Below are positions 23,880-29,854 of a stretch of DNA of 50,761 nucleotides, piece after piece (positions within the stretch are counted from its first letter, which is position 1; each line of letters begins with the position of its first letter). Below the pieces are notes generated by a model. The model was not told the DNA's origin and did no database searches. It worked only from the letters and a program-made list of their open reading frames with translations. The position numbers and the translations under genes were made by a program. Source of the DNA: Clostridia bacterium (GTDB lineage Bacteria; Bacillota; Clostridia; Oscillospirales; Acutalibacteraceae); assembly GCA_017435865.1 (NCBI GenBank), contig JAFSEF010000077.1, forward strand, positions 1 through 50,761, in the 5' to 3' direction.

Positions 23880-24065
23880 TTACTTCATCAGATTCTGCAC
23901 ACCTGTAATAAAGTCATCCATGGTATCGATGGCACGAATGGCTGTCTTTTTTGCCTTTTTCTTGACTGCATTGCCTGCCATCATGCCGGTACCCATCATA
24001 GCGGCACCGCCGATGGTCATCACCGCACCGACACTTTTCATAACAGTTCCGATTTTTGTTTTCAT
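23880..24065 (-). CDS. Small hydrophobic protein of unknown function
   Basis: 61 residues with a glycine/methionine-rich hydrophobic stretch (about 12-30, GAVMTIGGAAMMGTGMM) followed by a KKKAKK cluster and a short amphipathic tail. Perhaps a small membrane peptide. AAGGAGGG lies 7 bases before ATG, one of the strongest ribosome sites in the window, which argues that it is expressed. It precedes the spore gene pdaA by 51 bases. Confidence 0.7.
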   Translation of the reverse strand: MKTKIGTVMKSVGAVMTIGGAAMMGTGMMAGNAVKKKAKKTAIRAIDTMDDFITGVQNLMK

Positions 24066-24180: not shown

Positions 24181-24681
24181 ATGGCACAACTGAATATCGT
24201 GCTTGTGGAACCCGAAATTCCGCAAAATACGGGCAATGTTGCCCGCACCTGTGCCTGCACGGGAGCAAAACTGCACCTTGTAGAACCCATGGGGTTCAGG
24301 GTGGATGACAAAAAGCTTAAAAGAGCAGGCCTTGATTACTGGCATCTTTTAGACATCACTTACCATGCTTCTTTGGAAGATTTTTTCAAAAACACACAGG
24401 GCGGCACTTACTTTTTCTATTCCACCAAGGCAAACCACGATTACACGCAGGTCAGCTATCCCGACAACTGCTACCTTGTGTTCGGCAAGGAGACGGCAGG
24501 TCTGCCGGAATGGCTGCTGCACGAAAACCCCGACACAACGGTCCGCATTCCGATGATCCCGGATGCACGAAGCCTGAATTTATCCAACTCTGTTGCGGTG
24601 GGTGTTTTTGAAACACTCAGGCAATGGGGTTTCCCCGAACTGCAGAACAAAGGAAAATTAAGAGAATTTGATTGGGAGTGA
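24181..24681 (+). CDS. trmL: tRNA (cytidine(34)-2'-O)-methyltransferase TrmL
   Basis: 166 residues, the compact single-domain SPOUT form that methylates the wobble ribose of tRNA-Leu isoacceptors. Knot motifs: N-terminal VEPEIPQNTGNVART, FGKETAGLP and the C-terminal SLNLSNSVAVGVFE. GGAG precedes ATG. The mannosidase gene begins 4 bases after its stop. Confidence 0.93.
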   Translation: MAQLNIVLVEPEIPQNTGNVARTCACTGAKLHLVEPMGFRVDDKKLKRAGLDYWHLLDITYHASLEDFFKNTQGGTYFFYSTKANHDYTQVSYPDNCYLVFGKETAGLPEWLLHENPDTTVRIPMIPDARSLNLSNSVAVGVFETLRQWGFPELQNKGKLREFDWE

Positions 24682-24685
24682 GTGT

Positions 24686-27600
24686 ATGCAAACGGTAAAA
24701 CCCGGCGTATTGAAACACATGATCAAACAGGTTGCGAAGTTTTTGTATCCGCAATCGGTATCCGTCCCCGTATGGCATGCTCACACGGGAAAACACATTG
24801 CACCGAACGAATTTACCCACAATGACGACACCGTCACCATGCATCTCGGTGACTGGTGGAACGCAGGCTACGACGATGTTCGCTGGTTTGCGGCGGACCT
24901 GTGTGTCCCCGAAAGCTTTGCAGGCAAAAAGGTGTATCTGCAGCTTGATTTCGGCGGTGAAGCGATTGTTCGCATTGACGGCAAAATCGTCGGTGCGGTC
25001 AGCTCCATGGATGCAGCTACATGGGTGCACAGAGACATTATTCTGCTGCCTGCCCTGCAAGCAGAACAGAAGTTGCACATTGAACTCGAAAATTCCGTCT
25101 GCTGCGGTGCATTCTGCGACCCTGCCATGGACGGTGCCAAAGACATCCCCATGCAGATGCGTTCGGCCTGCCTGAAAACGGTGGACGAAAGCACGGAAGA
25201 ATATTATTTCCTCGTCACCCGCGTTTATGATTCGCTGGAGCTTCTCAACGATGATGTTGTTCGCACCAAAGTGTACAACGCACTGGACGATTCGCTGCAT
25301 ATCCTCGATTTTGATTTTGACAACGAAACATTTTACCGCAGTGTGCCCAAAGCACTGCAGCAGCTCAAAGACGATCTTGCCGCCATCCGTGCACATTCCC
25401 CCGGTGATGTGATCCTGACAGGACACAGCCATCTGGATGTTGCATGGCTGTGGACGGTGCTTGAAATCACCCGCAAGACCGCAAGAACATTCTCCAACAA
25501 CCTTGCTCTCATGGACAAATATCCCGATTTTCGTTTTGCCCAGAGTCAGGCTGTGCTGTATGACTTTATGAAAAAGCATTACCCCGACATTTTTGAAAGG
25601 GTAAAAGAAAAAGTAAAAAGCGGACAATGGGCAATCACGGGCAACACATGGGTCGAAGCCGATACAAATCTCGCTTCGGGTGAATCGCTTGTCCGTCAGC
25701 TTCTGTTCGGCAGAAACTTCTTCCTCAAAGAATTCGGTGTCAGCTCGGATATTTACTGGCTGCCCGACTGCTTCGGTTTCACATGGGCTCTGCCGCAGGT
25801 CATCCGCCGTTCGGGTATGAAATATTTCATCACCGCCAAATTGCAGAACAACGACACGCAGCCGTTTCCGCATTCTGCATTCCGTTGGCGTGCACACAGC
25901 GGCGACGAGGTGCTTGCCTTTGTGCAGAATGTGCACTATGAGGGCGAAGCCGATCCGAACTACATTTACAACACCCACCACACCAACCGTCAGAAAGCAG
26001 AAACGGGTGTTTCGTTCGGTATGTTCGGCTACGGAGACGGTGGCGGCGGCTGTACCTATGACATGATCGAATCCTGCCGTGCAATACAGCAGATTCCCGG
26101 TATGCCGCACGTACGTCAGGAGCTGCCCGATGTCTTCTTCGGCAGAATGGAACAACACGCGGATGCGCTGCCCGTATGGGACGGTGAGCTGTATTACGAA
26201 AACCACCGCGGCACATTCACAAGCCAGGGCTTTGTCAAAAAGAACAACCGCAAGGGTGAAATTCTGCTTCGCAATGCGGAACTTGTCAGCACACTGGCAT
26301 CCCTTGCTGTCGCACACGGATATGAGCAGGAAAAACTCGAAGAAACATGGAAACTGCTTCTTATCAATCAGTTCCATGACATTTTACCCGGCACTTCCAT
26401 TCACGAAGTGTACGAAAACACCAAACGCGAATATGAAAAAATGAATACAGACGGCAATGCGTTGCTGAACGATGCTTTGCAAGCTCTTTGCAGCGGCATA
26501 CAGGCCGATGAAGGTGACACGGCGGTGTTCAATTTCCTGCCGTGGGAAGTAACACAGGAACTCACGGACGCTTACGGCAGCTTTACCGCAACGGTACCTG
26601 CCTGCGGATGGCGTGTGTATAAAATTGGTGAAAGACCCGACACCGCAAAGGGTGTCACCGCAAGCACAACGAAGCTCGAAAATGCATATCTTTGTGCACA
26701 ATTTGACGAAAACGGCCTGCTGACAAGCCTTTATGACAAAGAAAATGACCGCGAGCTGCTTTCTGCTCCCGAAGGCAATCTGATGACCGTATTCCAGGAC
26801 AAACCCATTCATGAAAGTGCATGGAACCTGGAACTCAACTACCGCAAAAAGAGTTGGGAACTGCGTAAAGCCGACAGTATCACGCTGATCGAAAACACAG
26901 AAAACAGAGCCGCACTGCACATTGTTCGCACATTCAACAAGAGCAGAATCGAACAGACAATTTCCCTTGGTGCTGCAGACCGTTTCCTGCATTTTGACAC
27001 CTATGCAGACTGGCAGGAAACCGAAAAAACACTCAAAGCAGCCTTCCCGCTTAACATCCGTTCACGCCGTGCAACCTATGAAATTGCCCACGGCAGTATG
27101 GAACAGCCGACCCACATGAACACCCTGTATGACCGTGCAAAGTTTGAAAACTGTGCACACAAATGGGTGGATCTCTCTGAGGGAGATTACGGTGTTTCGC
27201 TTCTCAACGACTGCAAATACGGTCACGACATCGAAAACAATCTGCTGCGTATTACGCTGCTGCGTTCCCCCAACTGCCCCGACCGCACATCCGACAAGGG
27301 AGAACACGAATTTTCCTACCGTCTGTATCCCCATGCAGGCACATGGCAGCAGGCACAAACCGTTGCCAAAGCAAACCTTTTCAACAATCCGCTTGTTCCT
27401 GTCCCGCTGCACAAAAATGACTGCAACACGCTGCCGCTAAGCTTTTCTTTTGTTTCGGTCAACAAAAAGAGCATCGTACTGGATGCCTGTAAGCAGGCCG
27501 AAGACGGAAACGGTTACATTCTGCGTTTTTATGAAGCACACGGCACAAGAGGAACGGTGCAGGTCAACCTCGGTTTCCCCGTGGCTGCGGTAACGGAATG

Positions 27601-27709
27601 CAACCTCATGGAAGACGGTGACACGGCCGTTGCGTTTGACAAAAACGGTTTTTCTTTCCGCTTCACCCCCAACGAAGTACGCACATTCCGCGTTCATTTT
27701 GAAAAATAA
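24686..27709 (+). CDS. GH38 alpha-mannosidase
   Basis: 1007 residues, a usual length for bacterial GH38. An N-terminal beta domain (to about 235) is followed by the catalytic domain: HLD metal ligands H249 and D251, and the nucleophile D361 within YWLPDCFGF; the C-terminal half is the beta-sandwich region. It removes alpha-linked mannose from N-glycans or oligosaccharides. No signal peptide, so it acts in the cytoplasm on imported sugars, fitting the GPH symporter gene just downstream. ATG 24686 has GGGAG 7 bases upstream. Confidence 0.93.
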   Translation: MQTVKPGVLKHMIKQVAKFLYPQSVSVPVWHAHTGKHIAPNEFTHNDDTVTMHLGDWWNAGYDDVRWFAADLCVPESFAGKKVYLQLDFGGEAIVRIDGKIVGAVSSMDAATWVHRDIILLPALQAEQKLHIELENSVCCGAFCDPAMDGAKDIPMQMRSACLKTVDESTEEYYFLVTRVYDSLELLNDDVVRTKVYNALDDSLHILDFDFDNETFYRSVPKALQQLKDDLAAIRAHSPGDVILTGHSHLDVAWLWTVLEITRKTARTFSNNLALMDKYPDFRFAQSQAVLYDFMKKHYPDIFERVKEKVKSGQWAITGNTWVEADTNLASGESLVRQLLFGRNFFLKEFGVSSDIYWLPDCFGFTWALPQVIRRSGMKYFITAKLQNNDTQPFPHSAFRWRAHSGDEVLAFVQNVHYEGEADPNYIYNTHHTNRQKAETGVSFGMFGYGDGGGGCTYDMIESCRAIQQIPGMPHVRQELPDVFFGRMEQHADALPVWDGELYYENHRGTFTSQGFVKKNNRKGEILLRNAELVSTLASLAVAHGYEQEKLEETWKLLLINQFHDILPGTSIHEVYENTKREYEKMNTDGNALLNDALQALCSGIQADEGDTAVFNFLPWEVTQELTDAYGSFTATVPACGWRVYKIGERPDTAKGVTASTTKLENAYLCAQFDENGLLTSLYDKENDRELLSAPEGNLMTVFQDKPIHESAWNLELNYRKKSWELRKADSITLIENTENRAALHIVRTFNKSRIEQTISLGAADRFLHFDTYADWQETEKTLKAAFPLNIRSRRATYEIAHGSMEQPTHMNTLYDRAKFENCAHKWVDLSEGDYGVSLLNDCKYGHDIENNLLRITLLRSPNCPDRTSDKGEHEFSYRLYPHAGTWQQAQTVAKANLFNNPLVPVPLHKNDCNTLPLSFSFVSVNKKSIVLDACKQAEDGNGYILRFYEAHGTRGTVQVNLGFPVAAVTECNLMEDGDTAVAFDKNGFSFRFTPNEVRTFRVHFEK

Positions 27710-27776: not shown

Positions 27777-29297
27777 ATGGCTAAAGAAAAAACAAAATCG
27801 CCGCGTCCCGGTTATGTTGTACCGAAAAAAGAACTCACAAACTTTGCATTCGGTGCCATGGGACAGGGTATGATTTATGCCATGATGTCCAGCTACATCA
27901 GTGACTATTATGTAAACATTCTGCAGCTGCCGATGATGTTTGTGCTGCTGCTGATGCTGCTTGCCCGTGTGTGGGATGCCATCAACGATCCGCTGATGGG
28001 CATTATCGCCGACCGCCGCGAACCCACCAAAATGGGTAAAATGAAAAAATACATTCTTTATGCCGCAGCCCCCATTGCGATTCTTTCGCTGCTGATGTAT
28101 GCAAGTCCCGACATGGAAACCAAACCTCTGATGATCTTTACCGCTTTTGTGTATGTTCTCTGGGGTATGAGTTACACCATGGCAGACGTTCCGTTCTGGA
28201 GTATCCCGAACTTCATGACACCCCATGCGGAAGAACGCGGCTATGTCATTTCCTTCACAAAGAACCTCAACGGTATCGGTTCTGCAATTCCCGAAGTGCT
28301 GTTCCTTGTTGCCGGTTTCACACTGCCCGCATTGCTCGGCACCACAGGTACGCAGTTTGAAAAACAGAAATATTTCATCATTGCCGCCGTCACGGTTGCA
28401 ATCGGCGTCGTGATGTATGTCAACTCCTATTTCCACATCAAAGAACGCATCATTCCGCCCGTCAAGGTCAGACAGCCGGGTGAACCGTCCGCACTGTCCC
28501 GCATTTTCAAGTGCAAACCGCTGATGCTTGTTGTTGCCATGGGTGTTCTCTCTTCGGGCAGATACCTTGTACAGGCAGCCGCCATCCACGTTGCTCGTTA
28601 CGCTTTTTACATCGGCCCCGAACTGACCGATGCCATGACCGAAGCCGAACGCAACGGCTACATTCAGGCAAGCATTTCGAGCGTCAAGACCATTTTCCAG
28701 GTCTGTGCCATCGTCGGTATGTTCGGTGCCATGCTGCTCATGCCCAAACTCATGCGTAAATTTGACTACAAGAAAATCGTTATCACAACCTGCCTTTTAG
28801 GCTTCGGTGCAAGCATCTGCACCACCCTTGTCGGCTGGTTCACAAACAATCTTTACATCTGCACCCCGTTCATTCTTATTTCCTGCATTCCGCTCGGTGT
28901 TCTCAACGTTGTTTCCAACGCCATGATCTGTGACTGTCTGGACTACATTGAGCTTGAAACAGGCTACCGCGACAACGGCTTCGGTTCTGCCTGCCAGGGA
29001 TTCGTCAACAAACTCGGCAACGCTCTTGCCACCTGCGGCATCATCATTATGTACATGGTCATCGATATTGACCCTGCACAGATGTATTCCAAGGATGCAA
29101 TCCTTACTGCAATGGATCTGACAAGAACACAGAACTTTGCCATGTTCTCGCTTGTTTCACTCATCCCCGGCATCAGCATGCTTCTTTGCTCCATTCCGAT
29201 GTTCTTCTATAAGATCTCCGGCAAAGAAAAGGAACGCATTGTCACCGAACTTGCAGCAAAAAGAGCAAAAGAAAGTGCAACTTCAACAAGCAAATAA
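27777..29297 (+). CDS. GPH-family (melibiose-type) sugar:cation symporter
   Basis: 506 residues with about 12 helices. Family landmarks: the loop after helix 2, RVWDAINDPLMG, followed by RREPTKMGKMKKY, and later DVPFWSIPNF, which together mark the GPH (glycoside-pentoside-hexuronide) transporters. Placed behind the mannosidase it likely imports mannosides or related glycosides; specificity is inferred. AAAGGATG lies before ATG. Confidence 0.88.
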   Translation: MAKEKTKSPRPGYVVPKKELTNFAFGAMGQGMIYAMMSSYISDYYVNILQLPMMFVLLLMLLARVWDAINDPLMGIIADRREPTKMGKMKKYILYAAAPIAILSLLMYASPDMETKPLMIFTAFVYVLWGMSYTMADVPFWSIPNFMTPHAEERGYVISFTKNLNGIGSAIPEVLFLVAGFTLPALLGTTGTQFEKQKYFIIAAVTVAIGVVMYVNSYFHIKERIIPPVKVRQPGEPSALSRIFKCKPLMLVVAMGVLSSGRYLVQAAAIHVARYAFYIGPELTDAMTEAERNGYIQASISSVKTIFQVCAIVGMFGAMLLMPKLMRKFDYKKIVITTCLLGFGASICTTLVGWFTNNLYICTPFILISCIPLGVLNVVSNAMICDCLDYIELETGYRDNGFGSACQGFVNKLGNALATCGIIIMYMVIDIDPAQMYSKDAILTAMDLTRTQNFAMFSLVSLIPGISMLLCSIPMFFYKISGKEKERIVTELAAKRAKESATSTSK

Positions 29298-29331: not shown

Positions 29332-29360
29332 TTGCATTCCTCTTTTGCTTGTGCTATAAT
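29332..29360 (+). promoter_or_regulatory. Strong promoter of the small peptide gene
   Basis: TTGCAT (29332-29337), 17-base spacer, TATAAT (29355-29360) with an upstream TGC (extended -10). One of the best promoter matches in the window. Confidence 0.78.
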
Positions 29361-29398
29361 TCAAGTGTAGAAAATAAAAAACAATGGAGGTTTTTACA

Positions 29399-29497
29399 AT
29401 GGATATCATTAATCAGTTTGTAGATTTCATCATGAGCATCATCGAAACCATCAAGCAGCTTGTTGCTGACATCCGTGCAAAGAACGACGCTGAATAA
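29399..29497 (+). CDS. 32-residue amphipathic peptide
   Basis: ATG at 29399, stop TAA at 29495-29497, and GGAGG 8 bases before the start. The peptide begins MDIINQFVDFIMSII and ends KNDAE. Isoleucines at 4, 11, 18 and 25 are spaced exactly seven apart, with F7, I14, L21 and V8, I15, V22 on the same face: a clean amphipathic helix. It has its own consensus promoter and terminator, so it is a separate transcription unit. It resembles phenol-soluble modulins or small membrane-acting peptides in style, not in recognised sequence; a coiled-coil peptide is the other option. Confidence 0.75.
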   Translation: MDIINQFVDFIMSIIETIKQLVADIRAKNDAE

Positions 29498-29512
29498 GCA
29501 AAAACAAAATAA

Positions 29513-29542
29513 AGAGTTACCGCTTGCGGTAACTCTTTTTTT
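29513..29542 (+). terminator. Terminator of the small peptide gene
   Basis: A 10-bp stem (29513-29522 with 29527-29536), loop CTTG, and a run of seven T. Confidence 0.88.
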
Positions 29543-29554
29543 GAGGTAAACGAC

Positions 29555-29854
29555 ATGAATGAAATTTTTGAAGCCGTCATGGTCATCTGTTTCGGTGCAT
29601 CCTGGCCGCTGAACCTTTACAAATCCGTAAAATCCAAGACAGCCAAAGGCAAAAGCCTGCTGTTTGAAGTGCTCATTGCAATCGGCTATGTCTGCGGAAT
29701 CATCGGCAAAATCTACTCTTTTACGGTTCTGGATGCACCTGTCACCTATCCGTTTGTCTTTTATATTCTGAACCTTGTCATGGTCAGTGCCGACATCATA
29801 CTGACTCTGCACAACCGCAAGCTCGACAAAGAAAAGGAGAACACAAATGCTTAA
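29555..29854 (+). CDS. PQ-loop/SemiSWEET-like membrane protein
   Basis: 99 residues with three hydrophobic segments. The N-terminal GASWPLNLYKSVKSKTAKG resembles the proline-containing loop of SemiSWEET/PQ-loop transporters, which work as dimers of three-helix units. Assignment is by pattern only. GAGG lies 8 bases before ATG. The frame overlaps the next gene by 8 bases. Confidence 0.65.
   Translation: MNEIFEAVMVICFGASWPLNLYKSVKSKTAKGKSLLFEVLIAIGYVCGIIGKIYSFTVLDAPVTYPFVFYILNLVMVSADIILTLHNRKLDKEKENTNA

Follow-up and report, generated by a model that had tools for sequence, protein, structure and literature searches.

The window, that is, the whole stretch of 50,761 nucleotides analysed here, contains an open reading frame of only 32 codons lying between a promoter and a terminator of its own, and the question that it raises is whether such a frame is a genuine gene and, if so, what its product might do. 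The elements of the locus are the following:

29332 to 29360, forward strand: promoter, with the -35 box TTGCAT (29332 to 29337), a 17-base spacer and an extended -10 box TG-C-TATAAT (TATAAT at 29355 to 29360).
29386 to 29390, forward strand: ribosome-binding site GGAGG, followed 8 bases on by the ATG.
29399 to 29497, forward strand: open reading frame of type A, 32 codons (ATG at 29399, stop codon ending at 29497), product MDIINQFVDFIMSIIETIKQLVADIRAKNDAE.
29511 to 29542, forward strand: intrinsic terminator with a 12-pair stem and a T-rich end.

The promoter, ribosome-binding site and terminator are taken from direct reading, and the frame from reading, homologues and purifying selection. 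The succession of the four elements within about 210 bases, as described in the original prediction, was correct in its coordinates. The terminator hairpin (29511 to 29538) is AAAGAGTTACCG-CTTG-CGGTAACTCTTT, followed by T. The term "consensus promoter" used in that prediction is right for the -10 box, which is perfect, and generous for the -35 box, as TTGCAT agrees with TTGACA at three of six bases; a plain consensus promoter scan of the window did not list this promoter. The combination TTGCAT-N16-18-TATAAT occurs once in the whole window, against 0.04 occurrences expected. No Rfam match was found at the peptide locus, the only one in the window being a fragment of the Group II intron D1-D4-3 at positions 1 to 109 on the reverse strand (60.8 bits), cut by the window edge.

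Homologues were searched for in the genus, the bacterial family and the order. The peptide as a single query had a match in 24 of the 26 genus genomes at E≤1 and in 12 of the 26 at E<1e-3. A profile of 19 members (profile A1) matched 25 of the 26 at E≤0.1, and for 20 of these the value was 3e-9 or lower, although these strong scores arise partly by construction, since 19 of the 20 genomes had given rows to the profile. Twelve genus genomes had a completeness of 90% or more and a contamination of 5% or less; 11 of these reached E≤3e-9 with profile A1, and the twelfth (G017) contained a relative of a second type, type B, at 2.7e-4. The reversed profile, used as a decoy, matched 14 of the 26 genomes at E≤0.1, with a best value of 6e-4, and 12 of its 17 matches fell within open frames at least 100 aa long. 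In a sample of 300 genomes from 135 genera of the family, profile A1 matched 25 genomes at E≤0.01 and did not match 275. Ten genomes of seven other genera in this sample (g4, g44, g45, g57, g61, g80 and g108) reached E<1e-5; these had supplied no profile rows and are thus independent of profile A1. In the order sample (394 genomes, the share outside the family not being given), E≤0.001 was passed only by the own genome and one same-family genome, whose match lay inside a 101-aa frame and was judged unrelated. In the genomes sampled, the peptides are seen in a single bacterial family, and there in fewer than half of the genera.

Selection on the frame was analysed in five pooled, non-overlapping pairs of homologues, two of which are nearly identical and add little. 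Differences at the three codon positions numbered 13, 3 and 40, and the pooled pS of 0.417 (35.0/84.0) and pN of 0.060 (21.0/351.0) gave a ratio of 0.14. In 2,000 neutral simulations, with the same substitutions placed randomly and no stops made, the mean ratio was 0.54 and none was as low as 0.14. The pair G003-G005 showed two replacements and no synonymous change, and two pairs outside the pool gave pN/pS values of 0.29 (G001-G014) and 0.40 (G000-G003). Since the frame is conserved with substitutions biased to synonymous sites, and homologues occur in the genus and beyond, the peptide gene is not a product of chance; a spurious frame was ruled out by the homologues, the comparison with the reversed decoy and the pN/pS ratio. 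The 32-residue peptide gene is genuine, and in related gut-type Clostridia selection maintains it as a tiny gene of its own. The prediction of a self-contained small-peptide gene is thereby supported, and neither the lack of a conserved frame nor substitutions ignoring codon structure, which it had named as grounds for giving it up, were observed. Codon adaptation of the G000 peptide was 0.006 per codon, a value equalled or exceeded by 19% of background windows (reference from a 20-kb rplN region, mechanically picked frames), and this weak test showed no hint of high expression; no rplN turned up in the own genome bin. Among the open-access papers searched, no title or abstract opening described this peptide family, supplements of small-protein catalogues being outside the scope of the search; the peptide may well be present already in such a catalogue, for example GMSC (PMC11364881).

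The layout of the unit was surveyed in 30 type-A loci. A fixed rule identified a strong promoter in 16 (mononucleotide shuffles: mean 4.2, maximum 9) and was not satisfied in 14. The motif AGGAGG was matched at five or six of its six bases in 25 loci and at four in the other five. An intrinsic terminator was present 3' of the frame in 25 loci as well; four of the five terminator-less ones (G001, G002, G012 and G014) have a type-B peptide gene in the place of the terminator, forming a tandem of A and B genes, and the fifth (G013) ends at the contig end. It is mostly, then, a small-protein gene with its own terminator and its own promoter, in many loci presumably of the sigma-A type.

The surroundings of the unit were compared among relatives, and the following features of the window are relevant to them:

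24181 to 24681, forward strand: a gene that we take to be trmL (tRNA 2'-O-methyltransferase; named without a Pfam scan), a recurrent upstream landmark in the neighbourhood comparison.
24668 to 27709: GH38 gene, between trmL and the peptide gene.
27777 to 29297: MFS gene, likewise between the two.
29555 to 29854, forward strand: 99-aa frame directly 3' of the peptide unit, PQ-loop/SemiSWEET-like by eye only.

The 99-aa frame had no Pfam match at E≤0.001, adjoins the peptide gene only in close relatives and is probably outside the unit. Relatives of it with 40-55% identity were seen in 12 other records, one of them titled uncultured Spirochaetia. A short frame followed after 13 bases by a terminator and then by a gene could also be a leader peptide, or a dual-function small RNA, controlling the downstream gene, with the Ile, Val and Leu content sensing amino acids. 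We find this scarcely credible: the downstream genes vary among relatives, the peptide sequence itself is under selection, the transcript would be almost wholly reading frame, and the window locus has no Rfam match. A leader or attenuator role for the 99-aa gene in particular was rejected, as 12 of 15 loci with that gene had no type-A-like peptide within 600 bases upstream (filtered search).

A type-A peptide was present in 31 of 41 stretches of the neighbourhood survey. In 13 of the 31 loci, from three genera, trmL precedes it on the same strand (eight genus genomes and five of genera g80 and g108), and the GH38 and MFS genes intervene in four of the eight genus loci, the window included. A DegV-type gene lies between trmL and type A in G104 and G132, and type B alone is found downstream of trmL in G006, G008, G013, G017 and G024. 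The other 18 type-A loci, some of them on short contigs, have no trmL in reach; elsewhere type A adjoins an ABC ATPase that we label livF-like (G022 and G011; G008 by eye), folD (G013, G015 and G023), citrate synthase, SUF, NAD synthase and other genes. No frame of the peptide family followed trmL in the genus loci G010, G015 and G020, and in G016 and G024 the sequence was not readable to its end. A general link to trmL was discarded: of 28 additional trmL loci (those not seen before among the best 30 of 98 trmL-bearing genomes, out of 120; three incomplete), only G104 had a family frame led by a ribosome-binding site, the frame filter having missed G132, a known carrier of type A. In a TrmL tree of 32 of the 44 chosen sequences (12 were missed by a motif filter), with 14 of 28 inner branches left open, the genomes with type A at trmL did not form one clade and needed at least two changes, a single change occurring in 0% of 200 bootstrap trees. 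Inheritance at the trmL site is likely, but because the tree gave at least two changes a single origin of that site is not established. Divergent from trmL, the window also encodes a 61-aa small protein (23883 to 24065, reverse strand) with a Gly/Met-rich start and a Lys-rich second half; homologues of it lie next to trmL in six other stretches, and it had no Pfam match. Finally, 29 neighbouring proteins were scanned (27 of the 63 listed plus two DegV genes). Nine gave no hit in Pfam, and among the rest neither a dedicated exporter nor a gene for immunity or for a partner was recurrent.

The peptide itself has the pattern that the original prediction described, exactly so on reading: I4, I11, I18 and I25, F7/I14/L21 and V8/I15/V22, with no Cys, no Pro and no signal peptide. 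Its amphipathy was borne out by calculation (best 18-mer moment 0.62, mean hydrophobicity 0.36). Among 4,661 background 18-mers, sampled in steps of three residues along mechanically called window frames of 150 aa or more, nine reached a moment of 0.62 and none of these also a hydrophobicity of 0.36; as 177 of 20,000 composition shuffles of the peptide reached its moment, the value is only moderately unusual. Positions and periods were counted in 25 of the 30 members, ungapped, with five shorter or end-divergent members excluded (G006, G019, G013, G081 and G069). Positions 4, 7, 11, 14, 18 and 21 were hydrophobic in all 25, position 11 being always Ile, and the only residues at heptad positions a, d and e that were not hydrophobic were a Thr at 25 and, at 8, a Thr and a Lys. 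Position 2 was acidic in 24 of the 25, R26 and N29 were present in all and D30 in 22. The motif R-x-x-N-D was exact in 25 of the 30 members and relaxed in 29, counts inflated by the gathering of members by similarity, and nine of the 30 had an added Pro/Phe-containing tail.

The family-mean hydrophobicity peaked at 103 degrees, 22 of the 25 sequences peaked at 103-105 degrees, and the window peptide at 102.5 degrees, the sequences being related and so not 25 independent votes. Simulated means of 25 sequences lay at 98.5-101 degrees for a 100-degree helix, at 96.5-100 for 98.2 degrees and at 102-104 for 102.86 degrees, and single simulated 100-degree helices spread over 96.5-103.5, so that one sequence alone does not decide the period. 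All nine type-B paralogues tested peaked at 101.5-104.5 degrees. The hydrophobic face is about 160 degrees wide. Heptads of the form hpphhph with a 3.5-residue period, as in Type-2 coiled coils, are found, hpphhph only in the N-terminal half and hpphhpp (Type 1) in the remainder. From these features the peptide is predicted to be a strict three-heptad amphipathic helix ending in R-x-x-N-D.

Our preferred reading, held tentatively and a little short of even confidence, is that this leaderless amphipathic helix self-associates into a multi-helix bundle at or in the membrane, a function deduced from sequence. Each peptide would form a single helix of three heptads, hydrophobic at a, d and e and also at g in the N-terminal half; copies would associate through the wide hydrophobic seam into a bundle of several helices, type A pairing with its tandem type-B paralogue where there is one; and the conserved R26-x-x-N29-D30 end would contact a partner or neighbouring helices. 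Self-association is favoured because of the heptad period and the hpphhph/hpphhpp pattern, a Type 2/Type 1 code described as promoting higher-order coiled coils (PMC6175849, PMC8503928). The coiled-coil partner of the original prediction gains from the 103-degree periodicity as regards geometry, and as a role it stays a suggestion. Against the bundle, the 160-degree face would equally suit a helix lying on the membrane, and the Val/Ile at the e positions are bulkier than the Ala found there in designed barrels. That the peptides are a natural, stand-alone three-heptad family of alpha-helical barrels, alone or as A+B hetero-barrels, and the first of a leaderless helix-peptide repertoire encoded by gut-type Clostridia in solo genes and multi-peptide arrays, is a speculative extension that we hold improbable.

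The main rival to the bundle, which we regard as unlikely though deserving serious attention, is an exported surfactant resembling phenol-soluble modulins (PSMs), secreted without a signal peptide through an unlinked ABC exporter and acting outside on membranes, biofilm or competitors. Its size, the lack of a leader, its amphipathy and its own small transcription unit all fit, and PSM-alpha models were matched at E≤1 by two of 19 members in Pfam (best 6e-4) and three of 19 in NCBIfam (best 5.7e-5, bits not given). Where bits are shown, however, the best score is 20.1, against cut-offs of 23 (Pfam) and 30 (NCBIfam). In the PDB, PSM alpha 1 (E 0.053) is outranked by an unrelated Plasmodium protein (E 0.01). 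The registers also disagree: peptide 1-17 lies on model 1-17, and profile 9-25 on PSM 2-18. This is consistent with convergence, and we read the resemblance as two families arriving independently at an Ile-rich amphipathic helix. In Staphylococcus, PSMs are exported by an ABC transporter whose GntR-type repressor they also act on (PMC5080381); no dedicated exporter recurs beside the peptide gene, the sole recurring transporter part being the livF-like ATPase of G022 and G011. Moreover, a surfactant would not require features as specific as the heptad period and the conserved polar end. The "PSM-style" label of the original prediction holds for a leaderless, amphipathic short peptide and fails on the weak, sub-cut-off (where shown) and register-inconsistent matches.

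SpoVM and MgrB are models for the next rival, a small membrane-bound regulator inside the cell, whose helix would rest on the inner membrane while the conserved end would bind one protein partner. A small membrane regulator was one of three roles that the original prediction listed without preferring any. The conservation of the polar C-terminal end and the presence in most genus genomes, often at a small number of recurring sites, as expected of a housekeeping factor, speak for such a role. We nevertheless consider it rather unlikely, as no partner gene recurs, the known neighbours being diverse housekeeping genes with nine of 29 lacking a Pfam match; many promoters are of the presumed sigma-A type, unlike those of sporulation genes; and a single regulator is hard to square with the several paralogues and the arrays that some genomes have.

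These arrays comprise two to four more leaderless amphipathic peptides of 30-68 aa, some with Trp (L142:8827-9576, L143:14597-14950, L147:8856-9202, L024:510-1301, L153:4661-5521 and L150:9642-9934), and a single further amphipathic peptide gene was seen at L146:9793-9966. In G001 and G014, genes for a sigma factor (Sigma70 regions 2 and 4) and a serpin come after the arrays. The own genome contains a second amphipathic peptide gene of 54 aa, MANIEENTTLENAPQEEAGIFDGLANGFKQIVDFILYIINTMRDVITSIVKGVQ (C77:15627-15791, reverse strand; also in L149 and L135), with a hairpin and T-run downstream by eye. Some of these genomes carry both paralogues and arrays of other such peptides.

Type I toxins and leaderless bacteriocins are typically short amphipathic peptides encoded in small units and in tandem arrays, and a membrane-disrupting killer peptide has that resemblance in its favour. 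We give it very little credence. A mean hydrophobicity of 0.36 is low for a transmembrane helix, and the peptide is not a transmembrane segment; together with the failure of a simple consensus scan to find a minus-strand promoter-like site near the window frame, this argued against a type I toxin. Net charge averages -1.2 (-5 to +1 in 30 members; -3 by count in the window peptide), in contrast to the prototype leaderless bacteriocin, which is strongly cationic and contains five Trp (PMC11580447), and no immunity or transporter-type cluster genes were recognised among the scanned neighbours. Neither 50,697 phage nor 72,556 plasmid records gave a match at E≤1, and phage or plasmid cargo was rejected on the same ground; PADLOC gave none, and a PHROGs scan of five peptides none better than E 0.036. 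AgrD, which has an amphipathic leader, a Cys/Ser autoinducer, an acidic tail and an adjacent agrB, was also rejected: Cys is absent from all 30 members, no agrB was among the 29 neighbours scanned, and two of 19 members matched its model at E 0.041 and 0.092 (the latter 13.2 bits against 22.7).

The gene illustrates that a 32-codon frame can occupy most genomes of a genus under clear purifying selection and yet have no curated family, and the homologue set offers material on leaderless amphipathic peptides of commensal Clostridia. Multi-peptide leaderless bacteriocins exist, and aureocin A53 and lacticin Q share with this family short leaderless products and sometimes several peptide genes in a row; the present family differs in being net negative on average, in having no dedicated transporter or immunity neighbour in the scan and in occupying a recurrent chromosomal site in several genomes. 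SpoVM, compared by description, is a small amphipathic sporulation protein that is likewise a conserved tiny helix encoded alone, but the peptide promoters are of the presumed sigma-A and not of the sporulation type, and some genomes have several copies. Staphylococcal PSMs (PF17063, NF033425) are, like these peptides, short, leaderless, amphipathic and Ile-rich, with several paralogues per genome and an exporter that is not necessarily linked. The peptides stand apart from them by scores below the curated cut-offs where shown, the heptad period, the R-x-x-N-D end, another bacterial class (Clostridia) and no pmt-like neighbour seen, and agree with the general description of a leaderless short amphipathic helix (moment 0.62; helix predicted). 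With the de novo alpha-helical barrels (CC-Type2), as described in PMC8503928 and PMC6175849, they share short repeated heptads and hpphhph, with Ile at a and also among the residues at d, while being natural, with Val/Ile in place of Ala at e, Phe or Leu at some d positions and polar g positions in the C-terminal half. If the heptad reading is true, they would be natural counterparts of these designed barrels.
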